A DNA stretch of 32,242 nt. Origin: Halobacteriovoraceae bacterium (GTDB lineage Bacteria > Bdellovibrionota > Bacteriovoracia > Bacteriovoracales > Bacteriovoracaceae). This document shows positions 16,665 to 25,330 of the stretch, one piece after another. The notes below the pieces were generated by a model. That model did not search any database. It was not told where the DNA came from and saw only the letters and a list, made by a program, of their open reading frames with translations. The number at the start of each line of letters is the position of its first letter. Within the stretch, counting starts at the first letter, position 1. The position numbers and the translations under genes are program-made. The DNA lies in contig PAKC01000082.1 in NCBI GenBank assembly GCA_002706205.1, forward strand, positions 1-32,242. The letters run 5' to 3'.

Positions 16665-16911
16665 TTATTAACTGCCCTACTACGGTGCGGATAGAAGAGA
16701 AAACTCAAACTCACAGACAGAAGCTGTTATGATGTAACTATTCTAAATTTCTAGATGTCTGAACAGAAAAGCTTATTTCAAACTTGAAATTATTTACTTC
16801 TAAAATAACTGCAGGCAAGCGCCTCAAGGAAATCCCCCTTTAAAAGCACTCCAGAGGTTCGTTACTAAGTTTGAGTTTTCTCTATCATCAATTTAGTCGG
16901 GCGGTTAATAA
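16665..16911 (+). mobile_element. MITE-like element, copy 1 (non-coding)
   Basis: The core at 16699-16880 is bounded by GAAAACTCAAACT and its reverse complement; the perfect inverted repeat is 16 bp (AGAGAAAACTCAAACT, 16696-16711, with 16868-16883). The arms continue imperfectly outwards to TTATTAACTGCCC (16665-16677) and GGGCGGTTAATAA (16899-16911), giving roughly 45-nt terminal repeats. The core matches copy 2 at 24054-24237 in inverted orientation, including 31 identical bases at one end. It contains no open reading frame of note. It fills the intergenic space between the convergent M3 peptidase and peroxiredoxin genes. A structured RNA rather than a mobile element remains possible. Confidence 0.7.
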
Positions 16912-21801: not shown

Positions 21802-21840
21802 GTTTCAGACAAGATTTTTACATTTAATCAGGAGATGAAA

Positions 21841-22125
21841 ATGACTGTGAAACCATTACATGACAGAGTTTTAATTAAAGTCGTTGAAGAAACTAAAACA
21901 GCTAGTGGAATTATTATTCCAGACGGAGCTAAAGATAAGCCAACTGAAGGTGAAATTGTGGCCGTCGGATCTGGGTATAGACTACCAGATGGAAGTGTGA
22001 GAGCACTAGAAGTTAAGGCGGGAGACAAAGTTCTTTTTGATAAATGGGGAGGCTCTGAAGTCAAAGTTGATGGAAATGAGTACCTTGTTATGAAAGAAGA
22101 AAAAATTATTGGAATTTTACAATAA
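21841..22125 (+). CDS. groES: GroES co-chaperonin
   Basis: Lid of the GroEL folding chamber; forms a heptameric ring. The 94-residue protein has the N-terminal [10 protein letters not shown], a mobile loop around residues 17-32 ([19 protein letters not shown]) and the ending [18 protein letters not shown]. The ATG at 21841 is chosen over one at 21835, because AGGAG directly abuts the first and is 6 bp from the second. First gene of the groESL operon, 34 bp before groEL. Confidence 0.97.
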
Positions 22126-22135
22126 GTTTGTTTAG

Positions 22136-23815
<1,680 letters not shown>

Positions 23816-23852
23816 TAAGATAATAAATAATATTCATTCAATTTATGCAAAG

Positions 23853-23879
23853 AAGGGAGACAAAAAGTCTCCCTTTTTT
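23853..23879 (+). terminator. Rho-independent terminator of groESL
   Basis: A 9-bp stem, AAGGGAGAC with GTCTCCCTT, closes a 5-nt A loop and ends in a run of six T. Confidence 0.93.
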
Positions 23880-23957
23880 AGTGACAAAATGCTCCGAAAA
23901 TTTGGAACTAGTATCACTTTAGTTTGTCTTAAGTACGTTATTTCATGCAATTAGCTT

Positions 23958-23973
23958 TGGCACGGTGCTTGCT
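23958..23973 (+). promoter_or_regulatory. Sigma-54 promoter (-24/-12) for a non-coding RNA
   Basis: TGGCACG-N4-TTGCT (23958-23973) matches the sigma-54 core consensus at every defined position, with GG and GC at the required 10-bp spacing. Transcription should begin about 23984. The next open reading frame starts 410 bp further on, so the first product is an RNA. No activator (enhancer) site was identified. Confidence 0.82.
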
Positions 23974-23983
23974 TAAATAGAAG

Positions 23984-24243
23984 GTGCCTAAGGAAGGGCA
24001 TCTTGTCCACGGAGGGACACTTAATTGGAAAAAAGTAAGATTGAGGGGAGAAAGAAAACTCAAACTAAGCAACGAGCCGCTATCATGTTTATTAAAAGCG
24101 ATTTTATCGAGGCGCTAGTGGTCGGTTATTTTAAAAGTTAAATGATTTCAAACTTTTAAATTAATTTTACTATTCAGACATCTAGAAGTTTTGAATGGTG
24201 ACAAAGTAACAGCTTCTGTCTGTGAGTTTGAGTTTTCTTTTTT
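23984..24243 (+). ncRNA. Candidate sigma-54-driven small RNA with GGA-loop hairpins (CsrA-sponge-like)
   Basis: Hairpin 1 pairs AGGTGCCT (23982-23989) with GGGCATCT (23996-24003) around the loop AAGGAA. Hairpin 2 pairs TGTCC (24004-24008) with GGACA (24015-24019) around ACGGAG. A weaker hairpin 3 places TTGGA in its loop, and GGGGA follows at 24045-24049. GGA in a hairpin loop is the recognition signal of CsrA/RsmA, and CsrB/RsmZ-type RNAs carry several. The 3' end is uncertain; the T-rich stretch after the inverted repeat of the embedded element (24233-24243) could end it. No coding sequence of credible quality lies here. Confidence 0.5.
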
Positions 24244-24294
24244 GGCGCCACGGAGGGACACTTAATTGGAAAAAAGTAAGATTGAGGGGAGAAA
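24007..24294 (+). repeat. Perfect 47-bp direct repeat flanking the embedded element
   Basis: Positions 24007-24053 and 24248-24294 are identical over 47 bp and begin CCACGGAGGGACAC. They bracket 194 bp that contain copy 2 of the inverted-repeat element. The repeat carries three GGA motifs (ACGGA, TTGGA, GGGGA). The right-hand copy lacks the 5' stem arm that pairs with its GGGAC, so only the left copy can form hairpin 2. Confidence 0.95.
24054..24237 (-). mobile_element. MITE-like element, copy 2 (non-coding)
   Basis: The element is bounded by GAAAACTCAAACT (24054-24066) and its reverse complement (24225-24237). Read on the minus strand it aligns along its length with copy 1 (core 16699-16880): 31 identical bases at the start (24237-24207), a shared TCTAGATGTCTGAA block, a shared AGCGCCTC and the shared end TTAGTTTGAGTTTTC, with more divergence between. 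Copy sizes are 184 and 182 bp. There is no transposase, so any movement would need one elsewhere. Confidence 0.72.
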
Positions 24295-24394
24295 AACTAT
24301 CGCTTAGGATGAGCTTTGGTAATTTTTTCCTGAATTTCTTTATTTCAAGGGCTTCTCTTATCCAATTTTCATAAAAAGCCGAAAAGCTTTATGT
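24295..24394 (+). other. Remainder of the groEL-downstream intergenic region
   Basis: After the second 47-bp repeat I see only AT-rich sequence and a small hairpin (AAAGC with GCTTT around CGAAAA, just before the next start codon). No terminator, tRNA or ribosome binding site is evident. The hairpin immediately upstream of the ATG might limit translation. Confidence 0.4.
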
Positions 24395-24844
24395 ATGGAA
24401 ACAAATGATAATTGGATATTCTATTTGCGACTTAAAAAAAATCTTCCCGAAGATTATTTAAGTATGGATCAGCATTTTAAAACATATGGAAGAAGCCTTA
24501 TTCCTATTGGGCTTAAGGCCTTACTTGAGGCCACCAAGAACAAGCGCACTATTCATTTATTGGTCATTATTAAATCTTATCAGGATTATCGTTATTATGT
24601 GCGACGAGTGAGAAAAATAATGAAGTACCTTATGCGAACCCAAAGGGTTCATCTTTATGTGGCTTCTAGCTTTTCATTGGCCAATGATCCTTTAGTTATT
24701 AAGAAAAATTATTATAGTTTTGTAAAACTCCCAGTGAGAATGGATCGGTTTTGTGAGTTTGTATCGACTTCTATTGAAGTGCGAGAATCGAATCTCCTCC
24801 ACTGGCCGGGTGGAGTAAGACCAAGGCTTTCATTGGTAGGGTAA
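24395..24844 (+). CDS. Conserved-looking cytoplasmic protein, unknown
   Basis: A 149-residue basic protein without signal peptide or membrane segment. The pattern HLLVIIKS (strand), a basic helix around residues 62-80, VHLYVASS (strand), YSFVKLPV (strand) and a final helix RMDRFCEFVSTSI loosely resembles the second half of a response-regulator receiver domain, with LP where receivers have Lys-Pro. The phosphorylatable Asp is not evident, so at best it is a degenerate receiver; this is speculative. No ribosome binding site is seen. The next gene begins 3 bp after its stop, so the two are likely an operon. A shorter start at an internal Met cannot be excluded. Confidence 0.6.
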   Translation: METNDNWIFYLRLKKNLPEDYLSMDQHFKTYGRSLIPIGLKALLEATKNKRTIHLLVIIKSYQDYRYYVRRVRKIMKYLMRTQRVHLYVASSFSLANDPLVIKKNYYSFVKLPVRMDRFCEFVSTSIEVRESNLLHWPGGVRPRLSLVG

Positions 24845-24847
24845 ATA

Positions 24848-25330
24848 ATGAAGACAACAAGTGATGAATTATCCCAACGCTATATGGTTTTAATAAAAAT
24901 AGATGCGACCAATCTTTTTGAGCGCATTAGTTCTCGTAAAAAAGATTATATGGAAACATTTTCTTTAAAAAGAGATAGGGATGTTTTTAAAGAGATTTTT
25001 AAATGTCGTTATACCAGATCAACTTTTTTTGATTTATCTCATTTACCAACTGAAATAATAGAGGTGGCCAACGACTTTTATGATCAAGTAGATAAATTGT
25101 ATTGGTATCTCATGCATACTCAAGATATGCCCAATACCATTGAAGATGAAATTATGCGTTATCTTCATTTCATCGAAAGAAAATTTGAGGCCTTACTTTT
25201 ATATGTGGATGCGGAGCTAAGTGGAACTAATCTAGAAGATTCCTCTGATTTTGAAGATGTCCCGGCCCAAAACCCTGAGGAGGAGTACTTTCATTTTACA
25301 GGGGAAACTGAAAATGATTCTGAATCCTAA
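24848..25330 (+). CDS. Unknown cytoplasmic protein with acidic tail
   Basis: A 160-residue protein, predicted mostly helical in residues 1-125, with an aromatic-rich stretch (VDKLYWYLMHTQDM) and a final 35 residues dominated by Asp, Glu and Ser. I recognise no family. Begins 3 bp after the preceding gene and is probably cotranscribed with it. Confidence 0.65.
   Translation: MKTTSDELSQRYMVLIKIDATNLFERISSRKKDYMETFSLKRDRDVFKEIFKCRYTRSTFFDLSHLPTEIIEVANDFYDQVDKLYWYLMHTQDMPNTIEDEIMRYLHFIERKFEALLLYVDAELSGTNLEDSSDFEDVPAQNPEEEYFHFTGETENDSES

Follow-up and report, generated by a model that had tools for sequence, protein, structure and literature searches.

The DNA considered here, referred to as the window, is a stretch of 32,242 nucleotides (nt) from a Halobacteriovoraceae bacterium, and it harbors, between groEL and a gene for a 149-amino-acid (aa) protein, a sigma-54 promoter that is followed at once by two adjacent hairpins with GGA motifs in their loops. 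The same layout is found, with covarying stems, in relatives from several genera. CsrA is a global post-transcriptional switch, and the best explanation of the element, judged from sequence and held with evenly balanced confidence, is that it specifies a sigma-54-driven RNA that would titrate CsrA.

The promoter, TGGCACG-GTGC-TTGCT, matches the -24/-12 consensus exactly, as had been claimed in an original prediction made from the letters of the window, and places the predicted transcription start at around 23984. It is one of seven sites in the genome that match TGGCAC-N5-TTGC perfectly; allowing a single mismatch raises the total to 92, compared with 20 for a reversed control pattern. The genome also carries rpoN, in one copy. 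Since groEL has its own hairpin and T-run after its end, the promoter probably opens a new transcription unit, and it faces the non-coding tract that was predicted, the next open reading frame (ORF) lying 411 nt from the start (410 bp in the prediction).

From around 23984 the predicted stems and loops read GGTGCCT-AAGGAA-GGGCATC and then TGTCC-ACGGAG-GGACA. The AAGGA and ACGGA motifs that the prediction had assigned to hairpin loops both fall in predicted hexaloops, with their GGAs at 23992 and 24011, 19 nt apart. The 81-nt fold has a minimum free energy of -21.7 kcal/mol (z -3.8), and none of 200 shuffled sequences was equally stable. Hairpins with an A.GGA. hexaloop and at least four pairs occur three times on the two strands of the window; two of the three form this pair, which is the only tandem hexaloop pair present. 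In a control of 100 Markov-1 sequences the single-hairpin count was 0.84 per strand, and tandem pairs were absent. Two further motifs named in the prediction, TTGGA (24027) and GGGGA (24047), do follow the hairpins but lie outside stable hexaloops and are not conserved in relatives, and they were rejected as extra CsrA sites.

A DNA search with 23900-24053 against 98 relatives returned short matches only (E 0.005 or worse) and found no nucleotide similarity in same-genus genomes. The reading that the element is not conserved was overturned once the 149-aa gene was used as an anchor to find the locus in 98 genomes and the upstream DNA was read strand-aware. The promoter and two-hairpin layout is shared by six genomes (G001, G002, G003, G012, G018 and G039), spanning several genera; the relatives are named mostly as Halobacteriovoraceae metagenome-assembled genomes, and all are draft assemblies. 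In each, a sigma-54-like element is followed after about 11 nt by two hairpins, with ACGGAT, AAGGAA and AAGGAT among their loops, and the conservation of both promoter and GGA loops on which the prediction depended is thereby observed. In the seven-genome alignment 91% of cells are paired, five of the ten pairs show two-sided change while the loop GGAs are invariant, and the covariation score of 0.452 exceeds that of shuffles (0.267) and of slid versions (0.05-0.22). With three genomes added, in which hairpin 1 is imperfectly aligned, pairing is 83%; hairpin 2 alone is paired in 94-96% of cells across relatives, again with two-sided changes. The GGA of loop 2 is invariant, most copies have ANGGAN hexaloops in both hairpins, and the spacing between the GGAs is 19-21 nt in most relatives and 23-24 nt in two. 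A covariance model built from seven sequences, the window copy included, matched three genomes that were not used in its training (G165, G111 and G044; E 8.6e-11 to 5.7e-8), while its weak matches (E > 1e-4) were mostly promoter-driven. The adjacency to groESL that had been remarked upon is usual rather than universal: groEL lies within 1 kb upstream in eight of ten copies, is absent from that place in G002 and was not found there in G111.

The regulator itself is encoded in the genome, also in a single copy. The csrA gene sits within a flgK-flgL-csrA-fliW operon (read at G000:C24, with csrA at 103529), and its 76-aa product has a C-terminal extension and keeps R44 and N55, the latter a criterion for FliW-type CsrA (PMC13407953). 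Across the class, FliW was identified in 119 of 129 genomes. By these features the host CsrA is of the FliW-partnered flagellar type, a point that the original prediction had missed. The hairpin loops fit both the published ANGGAN hexaloop and the site obtained by systematic evolution of ligands by exponential enrichment (SELEX) (PMC7652899). The GGA spacing in the flaA leader is 21 nt, with 18 nt as the stated optimum (PMC4894983), and by analogy the 19-21 nt seen here would suit one CsrA dimer clamping both loops. Because the loops match the published hexaloop and the two-site geometry, there is a strong case for reading them as CsrA-type loops, and from it we infer binding.

In the mechanism that we propose, an enhancer-binding protein would activate the sigma-54 polymerase and a short RNA with a free 3' end would be made. 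Its first 40 nt or so would form the two adjacent ANGGAN hexaloop hairpins, both of which one CsrA dimer could clamp. Titration of CsrA by this RNA would release its mRNA targets, flagellar targets perhaps first because csrA lies in the flgKL-csrA-fliW operon, and a transcriptionally controlled RNA input would be added to a FliW-type CsrA circuit. A longer form is found in G059 and G015, two species that share a genus, where a sigma-54 promoter at the same position is followed by RNA regions of about 440 and 360 nt, respectively. These regions contain no ORF of at least 70 aa, end in a strong terminator before the gene, and have four GGA-loop hairpins each (0 of 200 shuffles), with fold z-scores of -4.4 and -6.6. 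This longer form, together with the sigma-28-type promoter that the 149-aa gene has for itself, speaks for a free RNA.

Several observations weigh against a free RNA. In the window no convincing terminator follows the element in the ORF-free tract; a weak hairpin with a T6 run, absent from a stricter terminator scan, is a possible original 3' end but is not convincing as a terminator. The tract is moreover divided by an insertion. G001 has the start codon of the gene 35 nt past hairpin 2 and no terminator in the intervening stretch. The short form has just two strong sites, few for a sponge, and sponge RNAs are not known in species with FliW (PMC4682653). Of the sigma-54-controlled CsrA sponge originally proposed, the CsrA-type loops, the promoter and their conservation stand more firmly than the free sponge form.

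The lack of a terminator in G001, and of a convincing one in the window, also speaks for a second explanation, which we regard as possible though on the unlikely side, namely that the two hairpins form the 5' leader of a sigma-54 mRNA that encodes the 149-aa protein and the product of the neighboring gene, in which CsrA would control the mRNA or the leader would titrate CsrA both in cis and in trans, like the Campylobacter flaA leader. The element and the gene share a strand, the element coming first, at a distance of 104-190 nt in the closest relatives and with nothing to separate the two in G001. In G002 it remains beside the gene although groEL is not upstream there; GGA hairpins also occur in clear leaders of other sigma-54 transcripts in the class. 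However, a separate sigma-28-type promoter lies at the start codon of the gene, also where the sigma-54 element is absent, and both hairpins lie well away from the ribosome-binding site and do not overlap it, though in several homologues ATGGA is found at the start itself. G015 and G059 have terminated RNAs ahead of the gene, and in the window the insertion has left 411 nt between the predicted transcription start and the gene.

It is improbable that the conserved hairpins bind a partner other than CsrA or merely stabilize the 5' end of a sigma-54 transcript. GGA-rich loops could be retained for other reasons, and with as many as 9 pairs the stems exceed those of most SELEX hairpins in length (PMC7652899), but the invariant GGA of loop 2, the ANGGAN hexaloops of both hairpins in most copies, a spacing suited to a CsrA dimer (PMC4894983) and the presence of csrA all argue for CsrA. 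That promoter match and hairpins both arose by chance, as the lack of nucleotide similarity to same-genus genomes and a class-wide test of sigma-54 promoters with CANGGAWG (19 matches versus 11 for a permuted motif) might suggest, is very unlikely because of the covariation and the model matches in independent genomes, set beside a syntenic layout in about nine genomes and the absence of tandem pairs from the Markov control.

Compared with known systems, a CsrA-titrating RNA of this kind would resemble CsrB/CsrC and RsmX/Y/Z of the gammaproteobacteria in having ANGGA motifs in hairpin loops (two hexaloops here) and no ORF, and the long G015/G059 form resembles them further in its several such hairpins and terminator. 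It differs in its sigma-54 promoter, where those RNAs are under UvrY/GacA response-regulator control, in the two strong sites of the short form and in its FliW-bearing host; an Rfam search gave no relevant match, CsrB/Rsm families included. The Campylobacter jejuni flaA and Bacillus subtilis hag leaders share the two-site geometry, with adjacent GGA hexaloops about 18-21 nt apart, and a FliW-type CsrA. Those leaders lie at flagellin ribosome-binding sites, whereas the element here lies at neither a flagellin gene nor a ribosome-binding site, has a sigma-54 promoter, and precedes a gene that is served by a separate promoter. CrcZ/CrcY of Pseudomonas and Azotobacter are also RpoN-dependent RNAs that sequester a translational regulator (PMC6292655, PMC4063720), but the target of CrcZ is Hfq and not CsrA bound through GGA loops; the relation was judged on the Rfam non-match only.

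Outside the gammaproteobacteria CsrA is thought to be antagonized by FliW, and BarA-UvrY and FliW are reportedly strongly anti-correlated, with inhibitory RNAs in FliW-bearing species left open (PMC4682653). In FliW-bearing Geobacter a CsrB-type RNA has not been characterized (PMC13407953), and a literature search for CsrA-binding RNAs in Bdellovibrio-like bacteria, which did not reach many subscription papers, found none. We tentatively suggest, with somewhat less than even confidence, that a family of sigma-54-controlled CsrA sponges, short or of CsrB length according to genus, operates beside FliW in the Halobacteriovoraceae. Such a family would break the reported split between bacteria with RNA-controlled and FliW-controlled CsrA and would tie CsrA activity to an enhancer-binding-protein signal. 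The 65-nt element is a concrete object with which to test RNA control of CsrA in a FliW-bearing lineage, and it may link an external signal, motility and life-cycle switching in an organism whose family suggests a predatory lifestyle.

Table 1. Coordinates of the element and surrounding features in the window.
Feature	Position	Strand	Remarks
groES	21835-22125		upstream neighbor of groEL
groEL	22160-23815	+	own hairpin and T-run at 23849-23879
Sigma-54 -24/-12 promoter, TGGCACGGTGCTTGCT	23958-23973	+	zero mismatches to consensus; same place in relatives
Hairpin 1, loop AAGGAA	23982-24003	+	fold; covariation in relatives
Hairpin 2, loop ACGGAG	24004-24019	+	fold; covariation in relatives
47-nt direct repeat, copy 1	24007-24053	+	completes hairpin 2; aligned with relatives
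Dispersed structured repeat core, about 189 bp	24053-24241	+	16-nt terminal stem AAAGAAAACTCAAACT/AGTTTGAGTTTTCTTT; splits non-coding tract
47-nt direct repeat, copy 2	24248-24294	+	ACGGA again, without full hairpin 2
Weak hairpin, loop TAGGATG, then T6	24296-24328	+	fold; absent from stricter terminator scan
Sigma-28-type promoter, TTAT then CCGAAAAG	24358-24386	+	column counts, 31 homologues
149-aa protein, conserved WPGG C-terminus	24395-24844	+	next gene after element
160-aa protein	24848-25330	+	neighbor of 149-aa gene

The 149-aa gene probably forms one operon with the gene for the 160-aa protein, and its product has no Pfam match. The class consensus of the sigma-28-type promoter upstream of it is T(T/C)AA, 21 nt, CCGATAA, and a CCGA(T/A)A box stands just ahead of the start in nearly all homologues, including those that lack the sigma-54 element. 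The box resembles the sigma-28 promoter and the CGATA boxes found upstream of flagellin genes. Among the homologue columns, T at -21 occurs in 22 of 31 and A at -18 in 21 of 31, with single-column p values of about 8e-5 and 3e-5, respectively, before correction for some 28 columns. Because this promoter lies ahead of it, the family is probably linked to the flagellum or to motility. Proteins of about 149 aa that end in WPGGxRxKL are found behind a sigma-28-type promoter class-wide (homologues L051-L080).

The insertion that divides the tract, which the original prediction had missed, is absent from the aligned relatives. Its core is a dispersed repeat that the genome matches, in full or in part, at 41 places, and a 47-nt direct repeat with two identical copies flanks it. 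Copy 1 is judged to be the native one because it completes hairpin 2. Most other copies of the core that were examined are about 240 bp long, carry TTAACCGCC...GGCGGTTAA-type inverted repeats at their ends and are often flanked by target duplications of 10-16 bp; the copy beside the element lacks the usual inverted ends and has the 47-nt duplication in their place. Long target-site duplications are a feature of IS1634-type elements. Such an origin for the 47-nt repeat is unsupported, as the duplications of the other copies are shorter and their terminal repeats have no counterpart here. An error of draft assembly could in principle account for the precise form of the insertion, although the repeat core has good support from other places in the genome. 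A second copy of the core lies in the window at 16695-16881 (minus strand), and there are about 25 near-full copies genome-wide. The miniature element of about 240 bp has TTAACCGCC inverted ends and a highly structured, conserved core, which retains motifs such as CAGACATCTAGAA and GAGGCGCTAG and could itself be an RNA.

A combined sigma-54 and CsrA regulon across the class is not claimed, since the CANGGAWG comparison, the sole unbiased test, gave a weak excess and failed; its permuted motif resembles a Shine-Dalgarno sequence. Terminators with GGA loops were set aside as a general device, such loops being present at 3 of 58 GGCC-N6-GGCC-TTTT sites, and two of those three share a syntenic gene. 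Flagellin leaders, taken as a positive control, contained GGAs, and clear tandem hexaloops were not found in them.

Other candidate RNAs were encountered along the way. At G000:C48:8600-8715 on the minus strand (L117), and also at L161 (G021) and L172 (G001), a sigma-54 transcript of about 105 nt has no ORF and a strong terminator. It includes 26 nt identical in the three genomes (TTTTTTATAACTTCTCCTTATGTCTCTC core), and it looks like a base-pairing small RNA because a CU-rich stretch resembles an anti-Shine-Dalgarno seed. Twin AAGGA-loop hairpins, the second followed by a T-run, lie in the 3' untranslated region of a lipoprotein-like gene of about 111 aa at the same syntenic place in four genomes (G000:C38:13996-14058 minus, L111; L113, L114 and L115), and are a possible 3' CsrA site. 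Another four genomes (L096, L112, L120 and L174) have a sigma-54 promoter and several GGA hairpins ahead of a membrane protein of about 45 aa (GSSLIHYSAYAK-type). Finally, at L182 (G124) and L183 (G125) a DksA/TraR-like zinc-finger gene has a sigma-54 promoter and, in its leader, GGA motifs, some of them in hairpins.
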